Shown here piece after piece: positions 2,506-23,697 of a stretch of 23,697 nt of DNA. Each line of letters opens with the position of its first letter. The first letter of the stretch is position 1. Origin of the DNA: a virus; IMG/VR virus record IMGVR_UViG_3300027749_000480, positions 1 to 23,697 of that record. The stretch is one strand, 5' to 3'. Below the pieces are notes generated by a model. The model searched no databases. It worked only from the letters and a program-made list of their open reading frames with translations, and was not told the DNA's origin. Position numbers and translations under genes: made by a program.

Positions 2506-2506
2506 A

Positions 2507-3316: not shown

Positions 3317-3319
3317 CAA

Positions 3320-3748
3320 ATGGCAATCGTAGCACAAAAAAAAGCACAAACTAGCCGCTCTATACAACCAGAATACTTTTCTGATTTTCTTAGCAGTTTT
3401 GATGTTGATTCTGTAAAACAAGATTTATACAGAGTTACAAACGAGGAGGCAGTAAAGTCTTCTATACGTAATTTGCTTCTTACTAATACAGGTGATAGAC
3501 TTTATGATTCAAAACTAGGAAGTAATATAAGGTCAATTCTTTTTGAAAATTTCTCACCAGCAATGGATTCTGTTCTTGAAGATCTAATTCGCACTACGAT
3601 AGAGAATTACGAACCAAGAGCAAAGATTGAGCAAGTATTTGTTAATAGCGAAATAGATGATCATTATGTTGTAGCAACGATAGTTTTTAGCATAATAAAT
3701 AAAGAGGAACCTATAACTCTTGAACTTTTTCTTAACAGGATTCGGTAA
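3320..3748 (+). CDS. gp25: Baseplate wedge protein gp25
   Basis: This 142-residue protein is gp25, the small wedge component that in T4 forms the inner wedge core with gp6 and contacts the sheath. The family signature is clear: LYRVTNEEAVKSSIRNLLLT, then TGDRLYDSKLGSNIRSILFE, then IRTTIENYEPRAKIEQVFV, with the EPR motif near residue 112. The short C-terminal strand pair (YVVATIVFSIINKEEPITLE) completes the fold. The length is close to T4 gp25 (132). A good ribosome site, GGAG at 3308-3311, precedes the ATG. The stop TAA at 3746-3748 directly touches the gp6 ATG, so the two partners are probably translated in tandem. Confidence 0.93.
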   Translation: MAIVAQKKAQTSRSIQPEYFSDFLSSFDVDSVKQDLYRVTNEEAVKSSIRNLLLTNTGDRLYDSKLGSNIRSILFENFSPAMDSVLEDLIRTTIENYEPRAKIEQVFVNSEIDDHYVVATIVFSIINKEEPITLELFLNRIR

Positions 3749-5536: not shown

Positions 5537-8500
5537 TTGATGTAGAAAAAATTATATCACCGTTAGTTAAAAATCAATTTCCTGAGTTTTACGTTTCGGA
5601 AGGCAATCGTTTTATTGATTTTGTTCGTCAATATTACGTGTGGATGGAGTCTCAAAATCAAACTACAAACAGATCACGTAGTTTATTTGATTATAGAGAT
5701 ATAGACAAAACGTCCTCAGAATTTATATCTCATTATAAAAACAAATACCTTGAAGGGTTTTCTCTTAATACTACAGCAAACACCCAACAATTAGTCAAAC
5801 ACTCAAAGGATATTTACAGCGCCAAAAGTACTCACAAAGGCGTTGAAATAACAATGAGGTCGTTGTTCAATCAAGATACTGAACTTTATTTTCCTAATTC
5901 AGATTTATTTAAAACATCGGATGGTGTTTGGATTAAGCCAATCTATCTTGAAATTTCTACAAACGCGTCCAAAACAAAAACTTTTTTAGGTAGACAAATT
6001 GTTGGAAACAAATCAGGGGCAATTGCTTTTGTCGAATCACTCATTACAAAAAGAATTGATGGAAGATTTATAGAAGTATTATATTTAAGCCAACTGCAAG
6101 GAAATTTTGAAACAAATGAGTATATAACAACGACTACTGATTTGGTTTTAGATGGATGCCCAAGAATTCTTGGCTCATTGTCTTCGCTGACCGTTGTAAC
6201 GGGTGGTGCCAATTTTAAAGTAGGTGACATATTCACCATTACTACCGGTTCTGGTAAAAATGCAAAGGCACGTGTTTCTGCTGTTAGCAACCAAACAGGA
6301 AAAGTTAGCTTTATATTTATTGATGCGTTTACATCGGGTGGTTGGGGGTATAGCCTTTTTAACAGTGAAGTGCTCGTTGCACAGAAAATGTTACAAGTTT
6401 CCAACATAACAAATTCCAATGCTGAAATAACAAACTTTGCGCAATTTGAAGGGATATCTCAACGATTTGCAAATCTTGCATATAATACCGCAAGACCAAA
6501 TAATGCAAATTATAGTGTTGGTGCTGTAATAGAAAATTATTATGCTAACGGTACTGTTTCTGCAAACGCTACAATTGTTGCAACAAACAAATCAAACACA
6601 ACAGCTGGTTATGTTATAGTCGCACCTAACTTTGGCAATGTCGTTACAAGTGATACGGTTTTTTCAATAAAAGGAACAGGTACCTCTGCTACTTTTAATG
6701 CTAATTCTGGTGTAGCAAATTCAAGCGAATTTATTACAACCACGTCTGCACATGGTTTTGTTAATGGTGATATAGTTGTCTACTCAATACGTACAGGTAA
6801 TACAGCTCTAGTGGCTTTGAGTACAGATGCGGCGTATTATGTTGTTGGTGCTAATAGTACGGCTTTACAGCTTTCAGATGCGTTGGGTGGTGCAGCTTTG
6901 AATCTAACAGCCGGATCAAACGAATCGGGCCATTTTCTTACAAAATCATTAGGGTCAGGTGTAATTACCGCATATACAGACCGCACAGCAATAGCAACAG
7001 TTATTGGAGCTAATTCAGAGTATGTTGGCGTCGTAAATATATCAAGTAATGGTTTTATCATTACGCCCTACTCCTCAATTGTTGGTGCTGTGACTAACAC
7101 GGTAGCTACTATTGCAAATACAGGTACGGGATCAGGAGCTACATTTAAAATAAGTCTCTTGACTGATACCGAATCCGTTTTCCTTTCACCTGATTTCTTA
7201 CATAGCAACAACATACAAAATGTTCAATTTTCTACCATAAATTTAAACGCAAATAACTCCGGCCTCGTTCATACAACTGTTCCTCATGTAATTAATGGAG
7301 GTGTTCAATATGTGTTTAATGCTAATTCTGGCGTAGCAAACACAACTGAAATAATTACAACGACAACTGCACATACTTTCTCTAATAACGATCTAGTTAA
7401 ATATTCAGTAGCATCCACCAATACTGCAATTGGTGGTTTAGTATCAAATGGAACCTATTATGTAATAAATGCGGTTAGTGGAGGAACTACGCTTAGTCTT
7501 TCGACTACATTAGGCGGAGCACCAATTAACATTACAGCGGGATTAAATCAAACAGGACACTCGTTATCAATAGGTGACTTGTGTTATGGTGGCTTTGGAT
7601 TTGTAAAATATCCTAATTCTAGCATTGACAGTACAATACTTGATTGTTTAAGATTTGATAATGATACTATTGGTTCTATTGCCGCTATATCTGGCTTTAA
7701 TCCTGGAAACGATTACAACATAGACCCTTTTGTTGTTGTTCATAATCCATATGTGTCGGGATATACAAAACAAGATTATAACATGGTAATTTCATCTGTA
7801 ACAGGTGCCTTTATTGAACGAGAGCAAATTTTACAAACATATAATAGTCCCGCAATACAACTAACAGTTAGTAATTTTTCTGGAACAGCAGCAAATGGTA
7901 CACCAACAACAACTGTAATTACATCGGAAAGAATTTTTCAACTTTATGCAAATGGTGCAACAAGAGCAGAGGGGTTTGTTGTCGAATCGGGTATTTCAAG
8001 CGGAGCAGGAACACTAAAACTGACGGGCGTTACAGGTACTTTTGTTAATACGGCAAATGCATCTACGTTAATGAGGTCACTATCAAGTGGTGGTACGGCT
8101 AATATATCTCTCGTATCGACAGTCACTCTTGCAACAACCGCACGTGCTATTATTAAACAAGTTGCAAATACAACATTCTTAAAATTAAAAAGAATAAACT
8201 TGGAAAATACTTTTCAAGTCAGTAATACAATTATTGGTCAAGTATCGGGCGCGACAGCAACTGTAAGTGTTATAGACGTAGACACGACACAGCCATTTTT
8301 AGGTTTAAATGCAAGAATAACTGCTAATGTACAAACAGCTAATAATGTTGCTACAAATCTTGATATTTTTGATTCGGGGTTTGGGTATGTTGATTACGAA
8401 ACCGTTACAATGTCTAATGAAGGTAGTAATTACACAATAACAGCTATCGTTCGTCTTGGAAAAGAAGGTCACGGGGAAGGGTTCTTTCAAACAACAAAAG

Positions 8501-8709
8501 GATTTTTAGACTCGGATAAAAAATTACATGATAATGATTACTATCAAGAATATAGTTATGAAATTATTTCAAAAATTCCTTTCGATAGATATGTTGATGT
8601 TCTTAAAAAAATAACTCACGTTGCAGGTACAAAAGCGTTTGGTAGATTATCAATTTTATCAACACCTAACGTGCAAATGTCTGCTATAAATAGCATCACA
8701 CTCTCATAA
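5533..8709 (+). CDS. Large baseplate wedge protein in the gp7 position (mosaic of beta modules)
   Basis: This 1058-residue protein sits between gp6 and gp8, where T4 has gp7 (1032 residues), but I see no direct gp7 sequence signature. The N-terminus (MIDVEKIISPLVKNQFPEFY, then FIDFVRQYYVWMES and LFDYRDIDKTSSEFISHYKN, residues 1-75) is the conserved head of a wedge-associated structural protein of marine T4-like phages. The middle is a string of beta-rich modules: a GGANFKVGDIFTITTGSGKN segment (about 225-245), two copies of an 85-residue module (387-470 and 594-679) also found in the downstream fibre, and an NTIIGQVSGATATV segment near 900. The C-terminus (DNDYYQEYSYEIIS, VAGTKAFGRL) is again conserved. 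It probably links wedge core to periphery. It overlaps the gp6 stop by ATGA and has no obvious ribosome site of its own, so coupling to gp6 is likely. Confidence 0.7.
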   Translation: MIDVEKIISPLVKNQFPEFYVSEGNRFIDFVRQYYVWMESQNQTTNRSRSLFDYRDIDKTSSEFISHYKNKYLEGFSLNTTANTQQLVKHSKDIYSAKSTHKGVEITMRSLFNQDTELYFPNSDLFKTSDGVWIKPIYLEISTNASKTKTFLGRQIVGNKSGAIAFVESLITKRIDGRFIEVLYLSQLQGNFETNEYITTTTDLVLDGCPRILGSLSSLTVVTGGANFKVGDIFTITTGSGKNAKARVSAVSNQTGKVSFIFIDAFTSGGWGYSLFNSEVLVAQKMLQVSNITNSNAEITNFAQFEGISQRFANLAYNTARPNNANYSVGAVIENYYANGTVSANATIVATNKSNTTAGYVIVAPNFGNVVTSDTVFSIKGTGTSATFNANSGVANSSEFITTTSAHGFVNGDIVVYSIRTGNTALVALSTDAAYYVVGANSTALQLSDALGGAALNLTAGSNESGHFLTKSLGSGVITAYTDRTAIATVIGANSEYVGVVNISSNGFIITPYSSIVGAVTNTVATIANTGTGSGATFKISLLTDTESVFLSPDFLHSNNIQNVQFSTINLNANNSGLVHTTVPHVINGGVQYVFNANSGVANTTEIITTTTAHTFSNNDLVKYSVASTNTAIGGLVSNGTYYVINAVSGGTTLSLSTTLGGAPINITAGLNQTGHSLSIGDLCYGGFGFVKYPNSSIDSTILDCLRFDNDTIGSIAAISGFNPGNDYNIDPFVVVHNPYVSGYTKQDYNMVISSVTGAFIEREQILQTYNSPAIQLTVSNFSGTAANGTPTTTVITSERIFQLYANGATRAEGFVVESGISSGAGTLKLTGVTGTFVNTANASTLMRSLSSGGTANISLVSTVTLATTARAIIKQVANTTFLKLKRINLENTFQVSNTIIGQVSGATATVSVIDVDTTQPFLGLNARITANVQTANNVATNLDIFDSGFGYVDYETVTMSNEGSNYTITAIVRLGKEGHGEGFFQTTKGFLDSDKKLHDNDYYQEYSYEIISKIPFDRYVDVLKKITHVAGTKAFGRLSILSTPNVQMSAINSITLS
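6691..6945 (+). repeat. Shared 85-residue module, copy A (in the gp7-position protein)
   Basis: Residues 387-470 of the 1058-residue protein start TFNANSGVANSSEFITTTSA and end in a NESGHFLTK strand. The pattern is FNANSG-[VI]-AN, ITT...AHGFVN-x-D-x-V-x-Y, GNTA, YYVV, LQLS, GGAALNLTAG, N-E-S-GH. It matches copies B (7312-7569) and C (18145-18402) over its whole length, so it is one domain reused three times in two genes. Confidence 0.85.
7312..7569 (+). repeat. Shared 85-residue module, copy B (in the gp7-position protein)
   Basis: Residues 594-679 of the same protein repeat the module of 6691-6945: VFNANSGVANTTEIITTTTA, then NNDLVKYSV, NTAIGGL, YYVINAVSG, LSLSTTLGGAPINITAG and NQTGHSL. In its first 20 residues it looks closer to the fibre copy (18145-18402) than to copy A. 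Confidence 0.85.
8685..8692 (+). promoter_or_regulatory. Candidate T4-type late promoter box (TATAAATA) before gp8
   Basis: TATAAATA matches the T4 late-promoter -10 box exactly and is the only exact + strand copy I found by eye. It lies in the last codons of the preceding gene, 20 bases before the gp8 ATG at 8713. In T4 geometry, transcription would begin near base 8698 and leave a leader of about 15 nt. Against it, the box is within coding sequence of an AT-rich genome, and the leader lacks a clear ribosome site. Confidence 0.35.
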
Positions 8710-8712
8710 AAA

Positions 8713-10488
8713 ATGTCAACACAACAAATTACCAATTATTTTCGCTTACATAACGTAAAGCAATTTCAAGAATCTATTAGCGAAGTAGCTAACAGTGTGT
8801 ATTATGTGTTTGCGGGCAAGTCAACTCCTTATTCAGCCGGAGATGCTACTATTCCTGCTATTATCAAAAGTGATAAAGAAACGTATTATGATCCATATGA
8901 TAACATGGTCTTTGGTAAACGTGTTATACCTTCAAGTGTAGCTGTTGTAGCTCCTCGATACAATTGGACAGCAGGTACAAAGTATAATGCTTATAGAGGA
9001 AATGAGGATTTATCAACCAAGCAATATTACGCTTGTGTTAACACTGGTTCAACATATGCTGTTTTTAAATGTTTAGATAATTTTGGTAATTCAGCATCAA
9101 CAATACCACCCGATCCAACGCAAACGGGCCCCAACGATGAGTATTATAGCACATCGGATGGTTATGTTTGGAAGTATATGTATGAAGTTGATGCAACTAT
9201 TTTTAACACATATGCAACAACACAATATTTACCAATTTTAGCCAATAACGATGTTGTAGCCAATGCAGTACCTGGCGCCATTGAAGTTTATTCTATTACA
9301 TATCCTGGTTCAAATTATAACACGTTTCTAAGTAACAACTTTACATCGGCAGATTTGCGTGTTGGTGGATCCACAGTTACATACAATATTGCTAATAACG
9401 CTGTTAATAGTGTAAATTTTTATAAAGATAGTTTTATATACTTAGCATCAGGTCCAGGTGCAGGCCAGGGTAAAAAAATAGTTGATTATCAAGTTTTAGG
9501 GTCATTAAAAACAATTACAATTGAATCGGCTTTTACTACACCACCAACAGCTGCAACAACATATGAGATTACACCAAGCGTTTTAATTAGTGGCGATGGT
9601 CGCAATGCTATTGCACGTGCTATTGTTAATACATCTTCATCAAATTCAATTGTTAGAATAGAAGTTTTATCAAGAGGTAACAATTATTCATACGCAACGG
9701 CCACTGTGGTGGGTAATACAGGAGGAGTATCAAACGCTGCTTCTATCATACCAATACTTGGACCTAAAGGTGGACATGGATCTGATCCTGCATATGAATT
9801 GGGAGGCACCGCACTTTGTATAAGTGTCTCCTTTGCCAATACTGAAACAGGAACCATTCCTGTAGCAAACGATTACAGACAAATTGGTTTAATAAAAGAT
9901 CCATTGTTTGCCAATGTTGTCATAACAACACTAAATCTTAGTGGATCGTTCGTTGTAGGTGAAACAGTAACACAAGCAAATACAGGTGCTACAGGAGTAG
10001 TATCATCATGGGACAGCATTAGTGCGTTACAGTTAACTAACGTCAATGGTATTATTTTAACAGGAAACACAACTGTTAATTATTTGAGAGGTGGGTCATC
10101 AAATACCACCGCTTCTGTTTCAACCTATCAAGTTGGTGGTGCATCAAAGAACTTCAACACCTTTGACCAGCGCCATAGATATACATTTAACCCAATATCT
10201 GGTGTCTTCATTCAAGACGAACAGGTATTTCAAACAGACATACAGCTTGCTAACGCCTTTTTCCATAGTAATTCGGCATCAACATTGTCTTTAACAAATC
10301 AAAGAGGTAACCTAAATACAGGTAATACAATTATTGGTCAGCAAAGTAGTGCTTCCGCTAATTTATTGTTCCATTATCCTCCTGATTTGATTGTTGGTTC
10401 GGGAGAAGTATTATTCCTTGAAAATCAATATCCAATATCTCGCTCTAACAGTCAGACTGAAACAGTTAAACTTATCTTGCAATTCTAA
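8713..10488 (+). CDS. gp8: Baseplate wedge protein gp8
   Basis: This 591-residue protein is gp8, a dimeric wedge protein joining the inner wedge to the periphery. The N-terminal part has the family features: TNYFRLHNVKQFQESIS, YYVFAGKSTPY (about residues 28-38), YDPYDNMVFGKRV, YNAYRG, and YYSTSDGYVWKYMYEVDA (about 144-161). Residues 190-560 hold beta modules common to these phages: YPGSNYNTF, GPGAGQGKKIVDYQ, LSRGNNYSYA, and FVVGETVTQANTGATGVVSS, followed by GNTIIGQQSSASANL near 540. The C-terminus (GEVLFLENQYPISRS, then QTETVKLILQF) is typical of the long marine version, while T4 gp8 is only 334 residues. It starts three bases after the preceding stop. A candidate late promoter box lies just upstream at 8685. 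Confidence 0.87.
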   Translation: MSTQQITNYFRLHNVKQFQESISEVANSVYYVFAGKSTPYSAGDATIPAIIKSDKETYYDPYDNMVFGKRVIPSSVAVVAPRYNWTAGTKYNAYRGNEDLSTKQYYACVNTGSTYAVFKCLDNFGNSASTIPPDPTQTGPNDEYYSTSDGYVWKYMYEVDATIFNTYATTQYLPILANNDVVANAVPGAIEVYSITYPGSNYNTFLSNNFTSADLRVGGSTVTYNIANNAVNSVNFYKDSFIYLASGPGAGQGKKIVDYQVLGSLKTITIESAFTTPPTAATTYEITPSVLISGDGRNAIARAIVNTSSSNSIVRIEVLSRGNNYSYATATVVGNTGGVSNAASIIPILGPKGGHGSDPAYELGGTALCISVSFANTETGTIPVANDYRQIGLIKDPLFANVVITTLNLSGSFVVGETVTQANTGATGVVSSWDSISALQLTNVNGIILTGNTTVNYLRGGSSNTTASVSTYQVGGASKNFNTFDQRHRYTFNPISGVFIQDEQVFQTDIQLANAFFHSNSASTLSLTNQRGNLNTGNTIIGQQSSASANLLFHYPPDLIVGSGEVLFLENQYPISRSNSQTETVKLILQF

Positions 10489-10497
10489 GAGAAAAAT

Positions 10498-13400
10498 ATG
10501 CCATTAGAAAATTCATTAAATGTAAGTCCTTATTTTGACGACTACGATCAAGCAAAAGAATACTACAAGGTACTTTTTAAACCAGGTGTTTCTGTACAAA
10601 CACGTGAGTTGAATCAATTGCAAACAATGTTACAGAATCAAATTGAAAAATTTGGTGATAACATATTTAAGTCAGGTACAATACTTAGCGGTATCAATTT
10701 TTCTTATTTACCAAACTATTCATATGTAAAAATACTTGACATTCAAACGGACGGCGAACCTTCACAGCCTTCTTCTTATGTTAATTATTTTGTTAAATCA
10801 GATCTTAATTTATCAGCTCGTATTGTAAATTCAGTGGACGGTCTAGAGTCAAAAACTCCTGATCTTAAAACGTTGTATCTTCAATACACCAACAGCTCAG
10901 ATAACGATACTGCCAATTCAAACACATCATATACGACGTTTTCTCCTGGTCAAAACATTACTGTCTTTAGCAAAGATTATCCAATTTTTAAAGTGACAGT
11001 TGATAATGGTGGTTTGGGTTTCTCTAATGCTGATACCGTCGTTGTTTTAAGTTCCATTATAGTAACAGGCAATACGGTCGCTTTTTCAAATGGCGAAACG
11101 CTCACATCATCGGCGCCTGGTTCACCTAAAGTAACAATTGCTTCAATTAATACGACAGCGATTGCTAACACAATTATCATTCAAGTTAAGCCAAGAACAG
11201 TTGATTTAACCAACAATTCTGTTAATTCTGTTTCGTGGTCATTATTGACTGGTTATAATATTTCTGGTAACACTAGCGGCGCAACCGCTAATCTAGTATC
11301 TTTTATTGGCAGTAGTGCTACAGGTTTAATAACAACAGATACACAAGGTATTACTCAAACCGTAACATTGACTAATCAAGGAAGTAATTACACTTTCTTA
11401 CCAACGTTCACTGTTAAAACAGCTAATGCAACAGCTACTGTAAGTAATATTAGCCTTACACCACAAAATTATAAAACAGTTATTACTGTTGCAAATGCAT
11501 CATCAAATGCAATTGGTACAGGATATGCTTTTGGTATATCCAGTGGCGTAATATATCAAAAAGGATTTTTTCTTAATGTAAATCCTCAAGTAGCTATTAT
11601 AAGCAAGTACGACATATCACCTAATAATGTAGCTGTTGGCTTGATTACAGATGAAAACCTTATTACTTCTTTTGTAGATGAATCGTTATATGACAACGCT
11701 TCTAATACTACCAACTTTGCTGCTCCCGGTGCTGATCGTCTTCAGCTCTTACCAGTATTGACGGTGGTCAGCAATGCATCAAGTTTAGGATCAAACGCTA
11801 ATTTTCTTACTTTGGTTGAATGGAAAAATGGAGCACCATTCAAAGAGAATAAAACTACTGTATATTCAAACATTGGCGATGAGATGGCACGCCGTACAAA
11901 AGAATCGCAAGGTAATTTTGTAATTAACCCATTCGAAGTTAGTTCAAGAGAATTACCAACAGCTAATCTTACTAATTTTGAAGTTGTTGTGGATCCAGGA
12001 ACAGCTTATGTTGAGGGTTACCGCGTAGCATCTCAATACAACACCGTATTGACCGCCGCTAAAGCAAATACATATGATACAGAAACAAGCAGATCAATTA
12101 CCGTTAGTTATGGTAACTATGTTTATGTAAACTGCTTGGTTGGTTTATTTAACTTTAAAGCTGGAGCAACAATAAGTCTTCGTGATACAGCTAAAACATA
12201 TATCTCTACAGCAACGATAGGCTCTGATTCCAACATTACACCAGCTGGTAGTGAGATTGGCACTGCTCGTATGCGTTCACTTGTTATTGACAGTGGTAAT
12301 CCAGGTACATCGACGTGTGTATACCGCTTATATCTTTTTGATGTACAGATGAATGCTGGACAATCGTTTAGAAGCGTTCGCAGTGTTTATTATGATAGTG
12401 GTGCTGATGGTGTTGCAGACATTGTTCTAACATATGATGCAACAACAGCTACTAATATTGCTGTTATACAGGACAATACAAAAGATAAAATGTTATTTCC
12501 GGTTGGGGTTGATGCTGTAAAAAGTATTTCAAGCATTACATACCAATACAGAACAAGCTCAGATAGCTCATTACAATTAACTTCTGGCGGAACTTTGCAA
12601 ATTGGACCATTGGGTGCAGGTCTGACGTTCCCATATAGCGATGGTGTTCTTTCTTCAACGCAAGAAAGAGATTTCATTATATTTCCATTAGCCAATACGC
12701 AGGCTGCGGCTAATAGTGGAGGATCAATTACAGTAACAAACAATAGCAACGTTGTATCTGGTTCATCGACAACATTTGCTTCTGATTATCAAGTTGGTGA
12801 TTTTGTTAAGTTTGCTAATAGTACAGCAAGCATCGTTAGACAAATATCTTATATTACAAACAACACATCGATGGGGTTGACAACCAACGCTTCGGCTTCT
12901 TTTACAGCAAACGGCGTTTTGTTTTATCCAGCAATGTATCCACTATCATTGGAATCACGCGCTGATAGAACAATTACAATATCAGGTACCAGTAAAACAG
13001 CAACGTTAAACTTGACAAAAACATTATCAGGTACAGTGAATGCGGTTGTTACATATAACGTATCAAAAATTGGGGCAACTCCTGTAGCAAAAACAATTAA
13101 TAGAAATTTATTTGTTAAGATACACACTAGCAACAACGTTGCCGGTGCAACGGGCCCGTGGTATCTTGGTGTACCAGGTATTGCAAGATTGAAAAAAGTT
13201 TATTTGGGTAGCAACACAACTGTTAATACATCAAGTACAGATGTTACAAAATATTTCTTTATTAACACTGGTGATGATCAAAATGCATATCGTAGTGGTC
13301 AATTGGTACTTGCAAATAAATCTGGTGTAACGCTTACTGCTAATCAATTTCTCATGGTTCAGTATGATGCGTTTACAACAAACGGAGCTGAAGGATTTTT

Positions 13401-14889
13401 TACTGCAGATTCATATAACATTAATGATACAGCTAATCTTGCAAGCTCTACAGCAACCATTAACACTCTTGAAATACCTGAGACAGTAACAAAAACTGGT
13501 AATTACTATGATTTACGAGATGTTTTTGATTTTAGACCTTATGGAAATAACACAGCCATTTTGACAGCAACATCTGGTAGCGCATCTATTAATCCGGCAA
13601 ACACCTTTGCATTAAGTGGAGATGACCAATTTTTTCCTGTTCCTGACTCAACAGTATCTTATACTGTACAACATTATTTGCCACGCATAGATTCTGTTGC
13701 TGTTGATACAAGTTCAACGTTTAGTTATATTCAAGGCTCTCCAGCCATGGTACCAAAAACGCCAAAAATAAGAGATAACTTACTTTTGCTGGGATCTGTG
13801 TATGTACCTCCTTATCCTTGTTTACCTCGTCAGTTAAATTCACAGACATCAACGTTTGCAGATAAACAAATTGGTAATGATAAAGGACCAATTACAACAC
13901 GTGTTTCCTCTTATAGAGTAAAAACGGATACGTATGTATACCAGCCTAAAAGATATACCATGGCTGATATTGGTAAAATAGTTGACCGTATTTCTTCCAT
14001 TGAATATCAGATATCGCTTGGTCAAGTAGAACAAGCCACAGCTGGGTTGAGTTTACCAAGCGCAATAACACCAACAACATCTCGTTTTAATAGTGCTTTT
14101 TTTGTTGATACATTTGATAATTTTTCAAGATCAGCGACAGCATCAAGAGAATATTCTGCGTCTATTGATACCGTTAGATCAGAATTGCAACCGTTAAAAA
14201 GACAGTTAAACTTTGAGTGTTATTTTGATAGAACAGATTCTACAACTGCTAATAGTATTGTAGGATCAACTCTAATGCTTCCATATACACAATCTGTGTT
14301 TATTGATCAAACAATAAAGAGTGATGTTTTAGGAGTTGATGGCCACGCAATTCAATTTGTGGGTAATATGTTATCATCACCTGCTTCATTCTCATTGCTT
14401 GCTCAAGTTGAAACAATACTTGATCCACCAATTATTACTGTTAATGTACCGGGAGCACCAACGTATGTTTATGTAGATCCTCCTGCTCCAAGTAATGATG
14501 GTGGAGGCGGCGGTGGAGGTGGCCATTTCTTACCGTTCCTTTTTGGTAATAGCCGTGTTATTTGCACACATTTCTATCGTAAGGGTATGCTCGATAGAGA
14601 CGTGTGGAGAGCAGATATTGAATTTACATTCAAACATCTTTCACCAACAACAATACGTGGATATCAATTCTGGGCTATTCCTTATGTACGTTTAATGCGC
14701 AAATCATCACTAGCTGAAAAAGTTATATATCCATTAGCTAAATGGCGCGCCAAAGAGCTTGCGTATCAAATGGGTGTAACTAAAAAAGGAAATATAAAAG
14801 GTAAAATTGTTAGGGCTATATGTGAACCTATTTGTTTTGCAATAGGTCTATTTGTTGGAGAACAAAATTGGAAAGCTTTGTGGGCATGA
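10498..14889 (+). CDS. Very large virion structural protein, DUF4815-type
   Basis: This 1463-residue protein is the longest in the window. The N-terminus (NVSPYFDDYDQAKEYYKVLF, KPGVSVQTRELNQLQTMLQN, QIEKFGDNIFKSG, residues 8-63) is the DUF4815 signature found in baseplate-periphery or fibre-base proteins of marine T4-like phages. Residues 140-440 carry beta modules (DNGGLGFSNADTVVV, NISGNTSGATANLVSF, TNQGSNYTFLPTFTV). Residues 741-811 carry a VSGSSTTFASDYQVGDFVKF module that recurs in the 677-residue protein. After DLRDVFDFRPYG (about 1005) comes a conserved-looking region, then a proline-containing linker and eight glycines (1335-1342). The last 115 residues (FYRKGMLDRDVWRADIEFTF, HLSPTTIRGYQFWAIPYVRL, CEPICFAIGLFVGEQNW) form a separate cap domain. 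An AAGAGAA precedes the ATG. The function is structural, and the exact position in the virion is inferred. Confidence 0.78.
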   Translation: MPLENSLNVSPYFDDYDQAKEYYKVLFKPGVSVQTRELNQLQTMLQNQIEKFGDNIFKSGTILSGINFSYLPNYSYVKILDIQTDGEPSQPSSYVNYFVKSDLNLSARIVNSVDGLESKTPDLKTLYLQYTNSSDNDTANSNTSYTTFSPGQNITVFSKDYPIFKVTVDNGGLGFSNADTVVVLSSIIVTGNTVAFSNGETLTSSAPGSPKVTIASINTTAIANTIIIQVKPRTVDLTNNSVNSVSWSLLTGYNISGNTSGATANLVSFIGSSATGLITTDTQGITQTVTLTNQGSNYTFLPTFTVKTANATATVSNISLTPQNYKTVITVANASSNAIGTGYAFGISSGVIYQKGFFLNVNPQVAIISKYDISPNNVAVGLITDENLITSFVDESLYDNASNTTNFAAPGADRLQLLPVLTVVSNASSLGSNANFLTLVEWKNGAPFKENKTTVYSNIGDEMARRTKESQGNFVINPFEVSSRELPTANLTNFEVVVDPGTAYVEGYRVASQYNTVLTAAKANTYDTETSRSITVSYGNYVYVNCLVGLFNFKAGATISLRDTAKTYISTATIGSDSNITPAGSEIGTARMRSLVIDSGNPGTSTCVYRLYLFDVQMNAGQSFRSVRSVYYDSGADGVADIVLTYDATTATNIAVIQDNTKDKMLFPVGVDAVKSISSITYQYRTSSDSSLQLTSGGTLQIGPLGAGLTFPYSDGVLSSTQERDFIIFPLANTQAAANSGGSITVTNNSNVVSGSSTTFASDYQVGDFVKFANSTASIVRQISYITNNTSMGLTTNASASFTANGVLFYPAMYPLSLESRADRTITISGTSKTATLNLTKTLSGTVNAVVTYNVSKIGATPVAKTINRNLFVKIHTSNNVAGATGPWYLGVPGIARLKKVYLGSNTTVNTSSTDVTKYFFINTGDDQNAYRSGQLVLANKSGVTLTANQFLMVQYDAFTTNGAEGFFTADSYNINDTANLASSTATINTLEIPETVTKTGNYYDLRDVFDFRPYGNNTAILTATSGSASINPANTFALSGDDQFFPVPDSTVSYTVQHYLPRIDSVAVDTSSTFSYIQGSPAMVPKTPKIRDNLLLLGSVYVPPYPCLPRQLNSQTSTFADKQIGNDKGPITTRVSSYRVKTDTYVYQPKRYTMADIGKIVDRISSIEYQISLGQVEQATAGLSLPSAITPTTSRFNSAFFVDTFDNFSRSATASREYSASIDTVRSELQPLKRQLNFECYFDRTDSTTANSIVGSTLMLPYTQSVFIDQTIKSDVLGVDGHAIQFVGNMLSSPASFSLLAQVETILDPPIITVNVPGAPTYVYVDPPAPSNDGGGGGGGGHFLPFLFGNSRVICTHFYRKGMLDRDVWRADIEFTFKHLSPTTIRGYQFWAIPYVRLMRKSSLAEKVIYPLAKWRAKELAYQMGVTKKGNIKGKIVRAICEPICFAIGLFVGEQNWKALWA

Positions 14890-17766: not shown

Positions 17767-20391
17767 ATGGCAAGAGCAATATCGAATGTTGTTATATCGG
17801 TCGACTCGTTTGCAACGTGGGTCGGCGTAACCAACATTATGGCAGACGCATTTACAAACTATGCGTTAACAGCCAATAATTCAACCATAGGTGCCAATGT
17901 TTCGGGTAACTCTAGTCTTATAGGCATCTTCAACGCTAACACAGTTGCTGTTGGTGATGTTTTACGTGGCGGTTCGGTCAACGCATCTGCCAATCTTAAT
18001 ATAACTTCTAATGCTTTATTTACTGGCGCAAACGTTTATATTACAGGCAATACCTACATTATAAACACAAACACAAACATTAACAGCGCTTCTTTTTCTA
18101 TTGTTACGGGAGGCGCAATTGTTAATACAGTTAGCTCTAACACCACATTCAATGCAAATTCAGGCATAGCAAACACAACAGAGATTATTACAACAGCTTC
18201 AGCGCACGGATTTGTTAACACGGATATAGTTACGTATTTTGTTAGTGCTGGTAATACAGCAATTACTGGTTTAGCTAATAACACAAGCTATTTTGTTGTT
18301 AATGCAGCAAGTGGTAGTTCTACATTACAGCTTTCTACAACATCTGGTGGTTCTGCAATCAATATTACAGCGGGCGTTAACGAAACAGGTCACACGTTAA
18401 CAAGATATGGCCGGGTTAATGTTAGTGGTGGTGTTACCAACGTAACATCAAATGTAAGCATACTAAATTCCAATACGTATATTAATGCTTCTTCTTTTAA
18501 TGTTATTGGTGGTTTGGCAAACGTAACATCAAACGTATCAGTAACAAATGCGAACACCAATATAAATGCAACAGCGTTTGGTGTCCAAGGTGTTTCAACA
18601 ATCGTTGGTAATACAACACTACAAGCAAATAGCTCACTGACAAGTTTTGCTCTTACATCTAATACAACAATAAGCAATCTTGCAATAAGTGTTAACCAAG
18701 TAACCGTTGCTGGCAATGTTAACATTGATAGTGGTACGTTGTTTGTTGATGCTGCTAATAACAGAGTTGGTTTCAACAATACAACACCAGATGCAACAGT
18801 TACAATAACAGGGTCGGCAAATATATCCTCAGCTTTAAGGATTGGAACAACGCTTGATGTTGTTAATGCTACATCGATTGGTAACAATTTTACCGTAACA
18901 GGTACAGCAAATGTATCTACAACAATCAATGTTGGTGCAAATGTAAACGTATCCACAACTCAGTTAAACATAGGCAATACAACATCTAATGCGGTTTTAA
19001 ATCAAACATTACTTAATATCGGTACTGCAACGAGCAATGTACAAGTTACCACATCTAGTTTAAATTTAGGTAATGCAACAACCGGTACTGCCAATATGTT
19101 TGCTCTTAATGTAGGTGCAAATGTAAACGTATCTACATCACAACTAAACATTGGTAATACGACATCTAATGCTGTTGCTAATCAAGTGTCATTAAGCATT
19201 GGTACTGCAACGAGCAATATTCAAATTAATTCCGCAAGTTTAAATTTAGGCAATTCGACAACAGGTACAGCTAATATGTTTGCCCTTAATGTAGGTGCAA
19301 ATGTAAACGTATCCACAACAAGATTAAACATTGGCAACTCGACAGGTAATAGCGTATTAACTCAAAATACATTAACAGTTGGCAATACAACAACAGGAAC
19401 CGTTAATGCATTTGCATTAAATATTTCAGGTATAACCGCAACAGGTAATACTACAGTAACTGGTTTTATTAACGCTAGTTCTTATGGTACATACAATGGT
19501 GTTGTCAACGCTACATCGTTCAATTCTACAGGTACTGCTACATCAACGTTTGCTAACAACGTCACCATTACCGGTGTAGCAAACACAGTATCGTTCAATC
19601 AAACGGGTGCAACTACTTCAACGTTTGCAAACAATTTAACTATTACCGGTGTCACAAATACCGTATCGTTTAATTCGACAGGTGCTGTTACAGCGACATT
19701 TGCTAACAATGTAAGTGTAACTGGTACTGCTAATGTTTCCACATCAGTTAATGTAGGTGCTAACGTCAATGTATCTACATCGCAGATAAACATTGGTAAC
19801 GCAACTGTAAACACTGCTGCTAGCAGCAACTCAATTAGACTTGGTAACACAACAGTCAATACTGTATTTACAGGTAGCTCAATTAGTACGAACGGTACGC
19901 TAGATGTAACAGGTAATTCTGGTCTTGTAGGGGCTGCAACGTTCTCTAATACAATTGCGGTAACAGGTAATGCTACATTTTCTAATGTAGTTTCAATTAC
20001 AGGCGCTACAACGCTTACAGGTGCTCTTTCAACAGCTGCAAACACCACTCTTCAAACAGATGTTGTGCTTGCTGTCATATCCAATACTAATATTGGTACT
20101 TCAACAGTAAGTGCAATAGAAATATTCAATTTTCCAATTGGAACATACACCGGCGCTAAGTTTACGGCAAGAATTACAAATTCTAGCGGTGCAAATGCAG
20201 CTGTTCAAGAAGTTATTTTGACACAAAATGGAACCGATGTTTACACTACAGTCTATGGTACAGTTGTCGCACCAACATCAGCTAATTTAGGTATATTTTC
20301 CGCTACGATAAATACAACAGCTGTTGCTGTAAAATTTCAGCAAACAGCTGCTAGTTCAAGCGTAAAGCTGTTCACACAATTAATAAAATAA
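17767..20391 (+). CDS. Repeat-rich tail fibre protein 1
   Basis: This 874-residue protein begins ARAISNVVISVDSFATWVGV and continues TNIMADAFTNYALTANNSTI, the base-attachment segment of marine T4-like fibres, with VLRGGSVNASANLNITSN at about 60-77. Residues 127-212 are the 85-residue module also found twice in the gp7-position protein. Residues 389-556 are near-perfect 60-residue repeats (VGANVNVSTTQLNIGN...TANMFALN). Residues 593-667 are three 25-residue repeats (STFANNVTITGVANTVSFN...). The composition is dominated by Asn, Thr, Ser, Val, Ala and Gly, suggesting a long beta-solenoid or triple beta-helix shaft. The last 110 residues (IEIFNFPIGTYTGAKFTARI, EVILTQNGTDVYTTVYG, VKLFTQLIK) form the beta-sandwich cap seen at the end of many such fibres. 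The ACGGAA at 17755-17760 may act as ribosome site. Confidence 0.82.
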   Translation: MARAISNVVISVDSFATWVGVTNIMADAFTNYALTANNSTIGANVSGNSSLIGIFNANTVAVGDVLRGGSVNASANLNITSNALFTGANVYITGNTYIINTNTNINSASFSIVTGGAIVNTVSSNTTFNANSGIANTTEIITTASAHGFVNTDIVTYFVSAGNTAITGLANNTSYFVVNAASGSSTLQLSTTSGGSAINITAGVNETGHTLTRYGRVNVSGGVTNVTSNVSILNSNTYINASSFNVIGGLANVTSNVSVTNANTNINATAFGVQGVSTIVGNTTLQANSSLTSFALTSNTTISNLAISVNQVTVAGNVNIDSGTLFVDAANNRVGFNNTTPDATVTITGSANISSALRIGTTLDVVNATSIGNNFTVTGTANVSTTINVGANVNVSTTQLNIGNTTSNAVLNQTLLNIGTATSNVQVTTSSLNLGNATTGTANMFALNVGANVNVSTSQLNIGNTTSNAVANQVSLSIGTATSNIQINSASLNLGNSTTGTANMFALNVGANVNVSTTRLNIGNSTGNSVLTQNTLTVGNTTTGTVNAFALNISGITATGNTTVTGFINASSYGTYNGVVNATSFNSTGTATSTFANNVTITGVANTVSFNQTGATTSTFANNLTITGVTNTVSFNSTGAVTATFANNVSVTGTANVSTSVNVGANVNVSTSQINIGNATVNTAASSNSIRLGNTTVNTVFTGSSISTNGTLDVTGNSGLVGAATFSNTIAVTGNATFSNVVSITGATTLTGALSTAANTTLQTDVVLAVISNTNIGTSTVSAIEIFNFPIGTYTGAKFTARITNSSGANAAVQEVILTQNGTDVYTTVYGTVVAPTSANLGIFSATINTTAVAVKFQQTAASSSVKLFTQLIK
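18145..18402 (+). repeat. Shared 85-residue module, copy C (in tail fibre 1)
   Basis: Residues 127-212 of fibre 1 read TFNANSGIANTTEIITTASA, then HGFVNTDIVTYFVSAGNTAI, SYFVVNAAS, LQLSTTSGGSAINITAG and NETGHTL. It is the same domain as copies A and B in the 1058-residue baseplate protein more than 10 kb upstream. Confidence 0.85.
18931..19432 (+). repeat. 180-bp tandem repeats in tail fibre 1
   Basis: The sequence encoding VGANVNVST starts at 18931, 19111 and 19291, exactly 180 bp (60 residues) apart. The first two units are complete. The third is shorter, lacking one internal sub-repeat before it runs into VGNTTTGTVNAFALN. Each unit is built from 16-18-residue sub-repeats of the type LN[IL]G[NT]-x-T. 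Neighbouring units differ mainly at synonymous or conservative positions. Confidence 0.88.
19543..19767 (+). repeat. 75-bp tandem repeats in tail fibre 1
   Basis: Three units begin at 19543, 19618 and 19693, exactly 75 bp apart, and encode STFANNVTITGVANTVSFNQ-type 25-residue repeats. The third unit grades into a VGANVNVSTSQINIGN segment, the same element as in the 180-bp repeats. Confidence 0.88.
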
Positions 20392-20399
20392 GGTAAACA

Positions 20400-21869
20400 A
20401 TGGCTGCTGGTAACACAAAATTTAGAGCGGAGAATGGATTAGACGTTATTGGTAGTGCCAATGTTAGCGGTTTGCTACGTGTAGATGGTGATTTATCTGT
20501 TGGTGGTAATTTAGCATTTACTGTAACAACATCTGGTGATCTAAATCCATCATCGAATAACACTTACAATCTTGGTACCGCCAATTTTCGTTGGGGTGTT
20601 TTATATGGAAACACGGCATATCTTTCAGGCAATTTAGACGTTACAAATACAACCTCGCTTGCCAATGTTGCAATATCTACAGCTGTTATACCAACAGCCA
20701 ATAATAAGGCTTTTGGTAATACAACAAGACTTTGGGATTTGTATGCAAATAATGCAAGTTTAATTTCTGCAAATGTTGGTGCAAACGTTAACCTATCAAC
20801 AACACAACTAAGCATTGGTAATGCAACGGGTAACAGTGTACTTACACAGAGCGCGCTGACTGTTGGTAACACAACAACAGGTACAATTAATGCTTTTGCT
20901 CTAAACGTTTCTGGACTAGTTGCAACGGGCAATACCACAACCACGGGGTTTATCAACGCAAGCTCCTATGGATCGTTTGGTGGTGTTGTTAACGCATCAT
21001 CTTTTAACTCGACATCCACCACTGCTCTATCGACGTTTGCTAATAATGTAACTGTTACAGGTGTAACAAATACAGTCTCGTTTAATCAAACAGGCGCTAC
21101 GACATCGACATTTGCTAATAATGTTACCGTAACTGGTGTATCTAATACTGTATCGTTTAATCAAACTGGTGCAACCCTTTCAACATTTGCCAATAGTGTT
21201 ACAATAACTGGTGTAACAAATACAGTCTCGTTTAATCAAACAGGCGCTACGACATCAACATTTGCTAACAATGTGAATGTGACCGGGACAGCAAACGTTT
21301 CTACCTCAATTAATGTTGGTGCAAACGTAAACGTTTCCACTACACAATTAAATATTGGTAATTCATTAAGCAATAGTGTATTAACGCAGACAACGCTAAA
21401 CGTTGGTAATTCAACTGTAGGTACAATTAATGCGTTTTCTCTTAACATAGTAGGAACAGGCAATTCAACTTTCCGTACAGACTTACTTACGCTTGATGGT
21501 ACAAATAATAGAATAGGTTTAAAAACAGGTCTTGCAAGTCTTTCAAGTGCCGCGTTAGCCACAATTACAGGTAACTTAGAATTCAGTACTATTAGTACGG
21601 GTTTGCGTTTACAAACATCGAATACGTCGATGAATGCGTCTGTTATGATGACAGGTAATACAACAAATACGCGAGTTACTTTTAACACTTTTGATTCAGG
21701 TATTTCAGGAACAACAACCGGTGGCTTTTCTTTTACGGGAACAAATGCGACTGCAACGCAAACATTACTGGACATCAATAGCACCTCTCTTCAATATAAG
21801 TCAGGAAATGTTGCATATTCTGGAAACTTTGGAATTTACAATGTCAGTGGCACACGTGTAGGACCATGA
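20400..21869 (+). CDS. Repeat-rich tail fibre protein 2, paralogue of fibre 1
   Basis: This 489-residue protein begins MAAGNTKFRAENGLDVIGSA, then LLRVDGDLSVGGNLAF and DLNPSSNNTYNLGTANFRWG (residues 25-68). This is the 'nominal structure then RW-LY' head common in phage fibre shafts. From residue 126 (VGANVNLSTTQLSIGN) to about 330 it parallels residues 509-690 of fibre 1, including VGNTTTGTINAFALN, TGFINASSYG and the 25-residue repeats, here in four units. The C-terminal 125 residues (DLLTLDGTNNRIGLKTG, GYSGNF-like end GNVAYSGNFGIYNVSGTRVG) differ from fibre 1, so the two share a shaft but not a tip. An AAGG at 20390-20393 is the ribosome site. It may be an alternative or partner fibre. No chaperone domain is visible. 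Confidence 0.8.
   Translation: MAAGNTKFRAENGLDVIGSANVSGLLRVDGDLSVGGNLAFTVTTSGDLNPSSNNTYNLGTANFRWGVLYGNTAYLSGNLDVTNTTSLANVAISTAVIPTANNKAFGNTTRLWDLYANNASLISANVGANVNLSTTQLSIGNATGNSVLTQSALTVGNTTTGTINAFALNVSGLVATGNTTTTGFINASSYGSFGGVVNASSFNSTSTTALSTFANNVTVTGVTNTVSFNQTGATTSTFANNVTVTGVSNTVSFNQTGATLSTFANSVTITGVTNTVSFNQTGATTSTFANNVNVTGTANVSTSINVGANVNVSTTQLNIGNSLSNSVLTQTTLNVGNSTVGTINAFSLNIVGTGNSTFRTDLLTLDGTNNRIGLKTGLASLSSAALATITGNLEFSTISTGLRLQTSNTSMNASVMMTGNTTNTRVTFNTFDSGISGTTTGGFSFTGTNATATQTLLDINSTSLQYKSGNVAYSGNFGIYNVSGTRVGP
21030..21329 (+). repeat. 75-bp tandem repeats in tail fibre 2
   Basis: Four units begin at 21030, 21105, 21180 and 21255, exactly 75 bp apart. Units 1-2 and 3-4 share a perfectly identical 47-base stretch (21060-21106 and 21210-21256, 150 bp apart), which points to a recent duplication or gene conversion of a two-unit block. 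Confidence 0.88.
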
Positions 21870-21870
21870 A

Positions 21871-23697
21871 ATGGGAAGACCGCTTAGAGCATTATATGCA
21901 AACACAACGTATAGCACTGGTGTTCAGGAGATGTCAGATGCAGAGATTGCTGATGTAATTGCTCCCCTCATTCTTAATTACATCGTTGCTAATCCAGATA
22001 CTAGTTATGGTAGCAAAGTACGTACTGTAGGTACAGATCCTTATGCTGTTAGTAGGGGATCAGCTTCCGACAGCATTAATGCTGCCGTAGGTACACACCC
22101 ATCAAGCAATAGCTCTTCAACAGCTGGAACAATATATCAAACACAAAGAACATTGACTAATTCTTTTAGTGTTCGTCCTGTTCATTATGTAATGAATGGC
22201 AATGAAGTTCAAATACAGGAAATGACCGACTCGGATTTAAATACATATTTTTATCCTTCTATTGTTAACACCATGCTAACCGGTGGCGTTGGTGCTTATT
22301 TTTTGGGGCCAACAGCTACTGGTGCTCCTGTGACCGGAACATGGTCATCTTACGGAACAGTAAATGACACATATTACGTTGGAAGCACACTAACAACTGT
22401 TTCACATACATTGTGGCAACGAACAGATGCAGCAACTGTTGGAACAGTTCGTCCTTTACGTTATAATACATCAGGTTCAAATCCTGTTGTATATCGTTTG
22501 GATGAAATGCAAAATTCCGACATTCAAGCATTAGCTGCGGGCGTTGGTGAATATATTAGAACAACGGGTATTGGTGTATATGCGTTCCAACCTTCAGCTC
22601 CAGGTAGTGGAACATGGGTTAGTAGAGGATCATTTACTGATAAAATAAATAATTTAACAGATACATCATATGCTGGTGCATACGTAGGTTCCTATGCAAA
22701 TAGTTTTACCGGTGTATATGCAGGTACTTTTACTGGTGTTTTTGTAGGTTCATATAGTAGAATTTGGACCGGCGCTTTTACAGGAATTTATACAGCAACT
22801 TATACAGGCAATTGGACAGGAGCATATGCAGGATCCTATCAAGGGAATTTCTCTGGTTCATATGCAGGCACTTATTCAAGATTATTTACGGGATCCTATA
22901 CTGGTAACTGGACAGGAACATATACAGGTGCATACATTGGATTTTATGCTGGATCTTATACGGGATCCTATCAAGGATTTTATGCTGGTGCTTATGCTGC
23001 TGCTTATGCAGGGAGTTATGCAGGATCCTATCAAGGATCTTTTACGGGATCCTATCAAGGATTTTATGCCTCTGCATACACAGGCTATTGGAACGTCTCA
23101 TACACAGCAGGTGCTGCCTGGACTACACCCTATCCTCAAGTGTACACCGGTGTATATGTACGTCCATCTCGTGGAGCAAACTTTTATTTTACCGGCAATT
23201 GGACTGGTACTGGAGGATCTAGCTCTTATACAAACAATACATGGACTCGAACTGCATTTAAATCATATGCAGGCAATGTACAAAGAGACACATTAGGTTA
23301 CGACCCATTTTCTGGGCAGCCAGCTTATTATACGGGTTATTTTGCAGCTAACTTTGTAGGAGCATATGAAGGTGCAACATATGTGTCATTCTTCAATACT
23401 GCTATAATGCACCAACGGATTATAGCATACACAGGGAATTACACAGGCATCTATTCAAGATTATTTACAGGATCCTATCAAGGATTTTATACGGGGTCAT
23501 ATACAGGCACATATGCTGGTGCATATTTAGGAAGCTACATAGGATCCTATCAAGGATCATATACAGGGGTATATGCTGGTACTTATTTGGGAGCATATGC
23601 AGGATCCTATCAAGGAAATTTTACAGGTACATTTGCTGGCACATATTCATCATTGTTTACAGGATCATATGCTGGTACATATGTAGGGTTATACAAT
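21871..23697 (+). CDS. Tyr-x-Gly-x repeat fibre/adhesin, open at the window end
   Basis: A frame starting at ATG 21871, one base after the fibre 2 stop, stays open for 609 codons to the last base, so the C-terminus lies outside the window. AGGA at 21860-21863 gives a good ribosome site. Residues 1-265 contain three related units of about 95 residues, each with an RP[LV][RH] start (residues 3, 102, 194) and an EM motif followed by Asp or a similar residue (20-21, 117-118, 212-213); two also have GTW (156, 247). This head resembles the 'RPLRYN...EMTDAEI' heads of marine phage fibres. Residues 267-411 have an aromatic residue at every fourth position without exception, in a Y-[ATQ]-G-[SATN] pattern. 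A non-repetitive island follows (412-519), then the repeat resumes (520-608). It is probably a distal fibre or receptor-binding protein. I do not recognise a described family for the repeat. Confidence 0.85.
   Translation, partial: MGRPLRALYANTTYSTGVQEMSDAEIADVIAPLILNYIVANPDTSYGSKVRTVGTDPYAVSRGSASDSINAAVGTHPSSNSSSTAGTIYQTQRTLTNSFSVRPVHYVMNGNEVQIQEMTDSDLNTYFYPSIVNTMLTGGVGAYFLGPTATGAPVTGTWSSYGTVNDTYYVGSTLTTVSHTLWQRTDAATVGTVRPLRYNTSGSNPVVYRLDEMQNSDIQALAAGVGEYIRTTGIGVYAFQPSAPGSGTWVSRGSFTDKINNLTDTSYAGAYVGSYANSFTGVYAGTFTGVFVGSYSRIWTGAFTGIYTATYTGNWTGAYAGSYQGNFSGSYAGTYSRLFTGSYTGNWTGTYTGAYIGFYAGSYTGSYQGFYAGAYAAAYAGSYAGSYQGSFTGSYQGFYASAYTGYWNVSYTAGAAWTTPYPQVYTGVYVRPSRGANFYFTGNWTGTGGSSSYTNNTWTRTAFKSYAGNVQRDTLGYDPFSGQPAYYTGYFAANFVGAYEGATYVSFFNTAIMHQRIIAYTGNYTGIYSRLFTGSYQGFYTGSYTGTYAGAYLGSYIGSYQGSYTGVYAGTYLGAYAGSYQGNFTGTFAGTYSSLFTGSYAGTYVGLYN
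22669..23103 (+). repeat. Tetrapeptide (aromatic-x-Gly-x) repeat block 1
   Basis: Residues 267-411 of the last protein place Tyr, Phe or Trp at all 37 consecutive period-4 positions, with Gly two residues later in nearly every unit (exceptions include N277, R297, A309, R337, A377 and S401). SR[IL][WF]TG variants at residues 296-301 and 336-341 are 40 residues apart, giving a higher-order period of ten units. Confidence 0.9.
22831..23615 (+). repeat. Seven identical 14-mers GGATCCTATCAAGG
   Basis: The exact 14-mer starts at 22831, 22963, 23023, 23047, 23470, 23542 and 23602, always in the same frame (Gly-Ser-Tyr-Gln-Gly). Ser is always TCC and Gln always CAA, although neighbouring repeat units use several codons for the same residues. 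An eighth GGATCC is at 22891. The identity is at DNA level, not just protein level. Confidence 0.9.
23428..23697 (+). repeat. Tetrapeptide (aromatic-x-Gly-x) repeat block 2
   Basis: Residues 520-609 resume the same period-4 pattern with 23 consecutive aromatic positions up to the window edge. Relative to block 1 the phase is shifted by one residue because of the 108-residue island between them. SRLFTG (529-534) and SSLFTG (593/594-598) variants recur 64 residues apart, again a multiple of four. Confidence 0.9.

Follow-up and report, generated by a model that had tools for sequence, protein, structure and literature searches.

What is the protein encoded by the last open reading frame of this virus contig, and how does its Tyr-x-Gly-x repeat fold? 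The DNA analyzed here (the window) is 23,697 bases long and is the entire contig IMGVR_UViG_3300027749_000480, so the frame, which we call the array ORF (21871-23697, + strand), is cut by the contig end: 609 codons are open and reach the end of the record without a stop. An AGGA lies 7 nt 5' of the ATG, and the stop of the preceding gene is at 21869. Aromatic residues occupy 37 period-4 positions in a row at residues 267-411 (26 Tyr, 7 Phe, and 4 Trp) and 23 further ones at residues 520-608. The +2 position is Gly in 29 of 37 quartets of the first run and in 20 of 22 of the second, and small or polar residues occupy +1 and +3. The longest period-4 aromatic run in same-composition shuffles of the protein (5,000 trials) was 8-9. 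These counts bear out the original prediction, which had described an open frame with a ribosome site, the two aromatic runs, and Gly mostly at +2.

The window array uses all four Gly and both Tyr codons, and Tandem Repeats Finder detected only short imperfect stretches in it. Thus, the regularity of the array is kept at the protein level, and the array is not merely a young DNA repeat.

The array gene, its neighbors, and its relatives

The window contig carries T4-type baseplate genes: a Gp5 OB domain, gp8, and a DUF4815 gene in the gp10 position. Judged by their domain matches, the gp8-like and DUF4815 genes (8713..14889, + strand; PF09215 4.7e-13, PF16075 9e-47, PHROG 438 8e-79) place the array gene within a T4-type baseplate/fiber cluster. 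The gp6-like product of the contig is 38-39% identical to its nearest relatives, which come from alphaproteobacterial T4-superfamily phages (e.g. Sinorhizobium phiM12/phiN3, Caulobacter Cr30). Two fiber-like genes precede the array gene on the + strand: an 874-aa gene with NVSTSQLNIGN-type repeats, two genes upstream (17767..20391; its counterpart in L002 is at 6905-8779), and a 489-aa gene directly upstream (20400..21869), which ends in 'NFGIYNVSGTRVGP' and whose position is conserved in relatives. Repeat blocks of the NVSTTQLNIGN/NQTGATTSTFANN type are common to both neighbors (17767-21869), suggesting exchange between the two genes.

The gene order in longer relatives is fiber-like genes, array gene, second array gene, small gene, and modifying enzymes; in L055, gp13-like and gp14-like neck genes lie downstream of the array genes and the modifying enzymes. 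In the relatives' loci, the array gene has gp8/gp10-type baseplate genes on one side and gp13/gp14 neck genes on the other, a position that we take to be where T4 has genes 12 and wac. Tandem pairs of array genes occur in many lineages (L002:10001-15358, L005:3037-6737, L008:8570-12651, L055:10001-13305, L057:7215-13023), and the second gene is about twice as long as the first, or longer, in L002, L057, and L059. From this arrangement, a second array gene is expected immediately beyond the window end.

Genes found after the array genes (L055:13879-16083, L002:15807-19188, L057:13481-16858, L004:16951-18448) encode glycosyltransferase-like, 2OG-Fe(II)-oxygenase, and methyltransferase-like proteins; a 'GTGRSGST' P-loop gene, with a sulfotransferase-like motif and no Pfam hit, also lies downstream. 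These enzymes might modify the Tyr-rich fibers. The gp10-position protein of L002 (29-3718) has a Gly-rich linker followed by a C-terminal Hint (hedgehog/intein)-like segment (CFTADTLVTL...VYNLMLENGFTHYANG...VHN), in which Pfam reported no Hint domain; the tail of the homologue in the window differs from it. psbA, a host clue, is absent from ten family-carrying records, including two of 151 and 167 kb.

A search of IMG/VR returned 30 loci, and later searches added 15, 9, 3, and 2 loci, some of them repeated. Full-length relatives range from 317 to 2,121 aa, with period-4 aromatic runs of up to 128. GenBank holds one member, WJE88074.1 of Phage C48C1 (OQ984149.1, Kyanoviridae), annotated as a 'hypothetical protein'. 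It shares with the family the N-terminal domains (258 aa aligned with L029 at 40% identity), a YxGx array, and a C-terminal YTLYVRVA. Unlike the others, it is ~3,350 aa long and has several globular insertions and many Arg-rich quartets, and the mirrored register described below was not detected in it. The literature yielded nothing for either Phage C48C1 or a YTGSYTG string. No relative turned up in the bacterial and archaeal genome contigs scanned with L005, and an exact 26-mer from near the contig end, sought for the 3' end of the window ORF, matched no other IMG/VR contig. The sequences in alignment A4 diverge too much to support a pattern scan. We also discarded Vibrio phage F23s1 (L033, OK483201, 1-430), an unrelated record in which a perfect 24-nt tandem repeat at the start gave spurious array matches.

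The absence of a named family with this strict repeat had been predicted, and our searches agree: Pfam, NCBIfam, PHROGs, PDB (sequence and fold), and BFVD hold no named family for the array protein, profile searches put the repeat in no well-described family, and Foldseek against the PDB and BFVD gave no match at E<=0.001. The sole PDB chain similar in sequence was the low-complexity C-terminal stretch of an exoribonuclease. Glycine-zipper models (PF05433, PF13441, PF13488) resembled window residues 542-583 at 16-20 bits, below their cut-offs of 24-29; these matches are composition-driven, and the families describe a helical membrane motif. A glycine-zipper identity was rejected (Pfam 19.7 bits versus a gathering threshold of 24.2; low complexity).

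In L003, a separate 1,143-aa protein (6564-9992) combines a two-armed Tyr/Gly/Lys array (335/385 residues) with a glycine-rich PHROG 2056 domain, annotated 'tail fiber; host specificity' (E 1e-10). By annotation, this fusion is the family's most direct link to fiber function, and it suggests that the array is a mobile module. We describe the window ORF, from its sequence relationships, as the cut-off start of a T4-superfamily phage fiber protein family without a name; the earlier assignment as a fiber of the baseplate/tail region is supported. The first array gene of L059 (1281-3753) is in two frames (1281-2150, 2179-3753), through a frameshift, a pseudogene, or a sequencing error. L029:9815-11125 belongs to a subfamily in which very short YxGx arms flank repeats (residues ~290-396) of the hexapeptide NYAGPT and the decapeptide NYLGEASGAV.

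Domain copies and the placement of the array

HHalign revealed that window residues 1 to ~260 are three copies of one ~85-aa domain, all encoded on the + strand: copy 1 at residues 1-96 (21871..22158; E 7e-10 versus copy 2, 2e-11 versus copy 3), copy 2 at residues 97-185 (22159..22425; E 1.3e-15 versus copy 3), and copy 3 at residues 186-263 (22426..22659). Such tandem N-terminal domains with a QEMSDAEI-type motif are a family trait that the window protein shares (alignment A2, HHalign). Copies 1 and 2 close with a YxLWxRT-type strand ('TLWQRT' in copy 2); copy 3 does not. In complete members, the strand missing from copy 3 is the C-terminus of the protein (YTLYVRTA, KLWLRTA, TFWKRIA). Such a C-terminal strand, of the YxLYxR(T/V)A type, is a further family trait. 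Whatever the array length, the first array aromatic lies 10 residues past a conserved Asp (or its equivalent) of copy 3, and the last lies 19-21 residues ahead of the final Arg. Because the closing strand sits at the C-terminus and both ends are anchored, the array is an insertion within the final hairpin of copy 3. A giant insertion in a hairpin must go out and return, and the chain of the window protein can be divided accordingly (+ strand): an outgoing arm at residues 267-411 (22669..23103), a non-repeat tip at residues 412-519 (23104..23427), and a return arm from residue 520 to 609, where the contig ends (23428..23697).

The idea, raised in the original prediction, of a sticky fiber binding sugars or an S-layer stays conjectural. 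The tip, rather than the array, is the likeliest receptor-binding part, a role that its place between the arms would suggest. Tips in the equivalent position measure about 83 aa in L003 and 18 aa in L005. The tip of L057:9133-13023 (residues ~710-815) consists of three tandem ~35-residue copies with the core RRTFGGRQENFYAGSYIMGYG, and L002 has related copies; from their sequence, the L057 repeats are a candidate variable receptor-binding part.

The two arms are nearly equal in length. Outgoing/return lengths in complete members were 96/92, 68/64, 60/56, 56/52, 438/430, 871/895, 78/83, 165/174, and 460/456; these nine members represent Gly-rich lineages, and the measure fails in Arg-rich lineages, where the largest aromatic-free gap is no reliable tip. 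In L003 (2,093 aa), the breaks in the 4-residue phase are also mirrored around the tip: 771 of 791 paired positions agree, none of 300 segment shuffles was as good, and the local composition is mirrored too (P=0.0018). This test was significant for L003 only (20/300 in L002a, 117/300 in L006, 176/300 in L007). Charge pairing across the L003 arms only alternates with register parity, and we set it aside as not decisive. Duplication or inversion of DNA cannot give a mirrored protein order; we thus prefer structural selection as the origin of the mirroring.

AlphaFold2 (AF2) models were informative outside the arrays. The N-terminal domains of the window protein mostly fold well (copy 1 pLDDT mostly 70-90, down to 43 at residues 71-80), and pLDDT falls below 50 from residue 261 onward. 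Isolated bridges every 4 residues (331-363) in the window array were disregarded at pLDDT below 50. The model of the 488-aa relative L005 has base strands at 243-272 and 456-486 (pLDDT 72-89 at residues 471-488) and a tip hairpin at 337-351/375-389, with strand sums consistent with a hairpin. Across the arrays, pLDDT was about 20-35, and near 20 in the arms of L005, as a disordered chain would give. On whether the base domain resembles the gp12 collar or gp37 D10 in fold, all Foldseek hits in the PDB had E>1, and the best VIA-align match was the P2 domain of perforin-2 (Z 5.3).

Residue pairing between the arms

We compared the arms residue by residue in three long paralogues, L057b, L059b, and L002b. 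When aromatic position i of the outgoing arm holds Phe/Trp instead of Tyr, position c-i of the return arm tends to hold Phe/Trp as well, where the constant c is the register. At one register the mirror correlation reached r = 0.66, 0.77-0.79, and 0.82 (n = 97-115 pairs), versus 0.37-0.49 at the best other register; the parallel orientation had no comparable peak, and block shuffles never reached the observed value (P<=5e-5). At the best register, the 312 regular pairs of facing +2 positions (115+97+100) comprised 183 Gly-Gly, 129 Gly-other, and 0 other-other, with about 17 other-other expected. Of 54 Gln residues at +2, 53 had Phe or Trp on the c-2 diagonal. The 308 aromatic pairs included 182 Tyr-Tyr pairs whose -2 positions were both Gly and 90 Phe-Phe pairs with one or two non-Gly there. 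In our interpretation, this pairing of aromatics and Gly seems to compensate for volume within a single face of an antiparallel sheet. Gly-rich arrays follow the Gly-complement rule clearly, and the Lys-rich L003 follows it weakly; members of the family are related, so pair and member counts are not independent.

The register follows from the ends of the array. With lo and hi as the first and last array aromatic and up to 241 registers scanned per member, the best Phe/Trp register was c = lo+hi+4 in all nine regular members (L057b, L059b, L002b, L003, L004, L005, L053, L005b, and L006). L003 fits only when lo is taken as 254, the second array aromatic and the start of its first run; the strict Asp+10 anchor, 250, gives an offset of 4. 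A pairing score trained on L057b, L059b, and L002b was then applied to other members. It ranked the expected register first in L006, L050b, and L059a (563 = 55+504+4) and missed it in L005, L053, L005b, L003, L057a, L002a, and others. In a general mutual-information scan of 22 members, the top register came no more than 8 away from the expected value in about half, several of these being Arg-rich; the expected register did not show up in C48C1, nor in L007, L012, L029, and L010, the members with the least length or regularity.

For the window protein, the trained score picked register 923 (6.9 versus 2.8 for the next), with P=0.0046 over all registers when the return-arm quartets were shuffled. 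Phe pairs face each other at 327/596, 339/584, and 391/532. At this register, the window protein has the period-4 aromatic array in two mirrored arms that characterizes the family. A register of 923 would carry the return arm to residue ~652 and the stop of the ORF to ~673-674; the window ORF is thus predicted from its sequence to end about 64-65 codons beyond the contig edge.

A probable needle-like fiber and its alternatives

Taken together, these results make it likely, in our judgment, that the array protein is a needle-like tail fiber of a T4-superfamily phage, in which the YxGx chain forms one giant antiparallel hairpin. The three small N-terminal domains would anchor the protein as a base. 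An outgoing beta-strand of Tyr-x-Gly-x quartets, 137-145 residues long in the window protein, would leave the third domain; the chain would form the non-repeat tip of ~108 residues and then return antiparallel, donating the last strand of domain 3. Residue by residue, the arms match, aromatic opposite aromatic and Gly opposite Gly. Where Gln, Arg, or Ser takes the place of a +2 Gly, the facing residue stays Gly and a nearby Tyr-Tyr pair becomes Phe-Phe, a switch that may keep the packing volume roughly constant. Three chains would probably assemble into a needle of six strands, resembling the T4 gp37 stem, and the tip would contact the host.

The original prediction had favored an extended beta structure that places Tyr and Gly on the same face, and our analysis upholds this much. 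The forms first proposed, a beta-solenoid or stacked sheets with a helix as the alternative, gave way to the hairpin. A beta-solenoid or a silk-like stacked-sheet rod with an aromatic ladder would account for the strict period of 4, for Tyr and Gly alternating on one face, and for the small or polar residues between them. However, it gives no reason for equal arms, mirrored breaks, and i+j=constant pairing over >400 residues, and neither Foldseek nor VIA-align matched one (the array model is poor); we regard such a rod as very improbable. The equal arms, the mirrored breaks, and the pairing of Phe/Trp and non-Gly residues likewise favor a two-armed antiparallel hairpin over a helix. The low pLDDT of the arrays and the exoribonuclease stretch as only PDB sequence match are what one would expect if the array were a disordered, sticky Tyr/Gly-rich linker of the prion-like or elastomeric low-complexity type, periodic by chance. 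Such a linker predicts no pairing, whereas a register held over hundreds of residues, mirrored covariation, and fixed anchors need defined pairing, and we give the disordered chain hardly any credence.

A further reading accepts the antiparallel hairpin and disputes its assembly: a single two-stranded ribbon or another arrangement, e.g. a head/neck whisker, instead of a baseplate receptor-binding fiber. The position of the gene, adjoining neck genes and presumably where T4 has gene 12 and wac, would suit a whisker. We think this rather unlikely: a bare two-stranded ribbon of 45-290 nm would leave one aromatic face exposed, the array in L003 is fused to a host-specificity fiber tip, and the T4 gp37 stem shows a trimeric solution (PMC6957217).

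The closest solved object to the array protein is, by analogy, the distal D10-D11 needle of T4 gp37. There, D11 (882-1009) is inserted in D10 (811-881 + 1010-1026), and a tip (932-959), probably holding the receptor-binding sites, lies between stem arms 882-931 and 960-1009 (PMC6957217). In the core of the trimer, Gly 921 packs against Phe 970 from a different subunit (PMC6957217); we note that 921+970 = 1891 = 882+1009, the register sum of the stem ends. As in this needle, the array is an elongated domain within a globular domain that is closed by a C-terminal segment, and the stem is two equal antiparallel arms with a tip inserted between them. In contrast to gp37, where residues 882-1009 contain 7 HxH motifs and 14 His, the eight family arrays checked have no HxH and 0-1 His; gp37 for its part has no period-4 aromatic run >3 in the entire protein, and arms are 52-895 residues long in the family versus 50 in gp37. 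Pfam, PHROG, NCBIfam, and the PDB gave no sequence homology to gp37 or to the gp12 collar domain, and remote homology is possible. By this comparison, the array protein would work like the gp37 needle but cannot be classed as one.

As a rule, long phage fibers are trimers and difficult to predict from their sequence. An extended strand spans about 0.33 nm per residue. If fully extended, the arms would span an estimated 45-48 nm in the window protein, about 150 nm in L057b, and about 290 nm in L003/L004; the short and long fibers of T4 measure about 40 and 145 nm. On balance, we favor the view that the family is a new phage fiber class: a self-paired beta-ribbon whose arms measure 52 to about 890 residues each, the longest an estimated 290 nm, and obey a cross-strand code that is close to deterministic (Tyr-Tyr with Gly/Gly, Phe-Phe with Gly/Gln-Arg-Ser). 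Length would then be set by the number of quartets and changes in one arm matched in the other. This would give phages a simple way to make stiff fibers of nearly any length. Because both arms covary within the same protein, a single sequence is enough to read off how the strand of a >400-residue arm pairs. If the hairpin is right, it offers a packing code, open to testing, by which a very long beta needle is built; it also presents a difficult target that defeats AlphaFold2 and poses an evolutionary puzzle, namely how arms hundreds of residues apart lengthen and shorten together. 'Hypothetical proteins', including that of Phage C48C1, would then be annotated as fibers, and host specificity would best be sought in the tip.

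A structural protein of Synechococcus phage S-RIM2, AGH06777.1 (L064, HQ317290, 4390-10128), is encoded directly upstream of a neck-protein gene. Like the family, it has a period-4 repeat with Gly at position 3. Unlike the family, its repeat is [VL]TGN, with Val/Leu for the aromatics and no period-4 aromatic run; its arms are unequal by eye, and no matching N-terminal domains were seen. The S-RIM2 hits were rejected as family members, their repeats not being aromatic, and the [VL]TGN repeat is perhaps an aliphatic analogue of the array.
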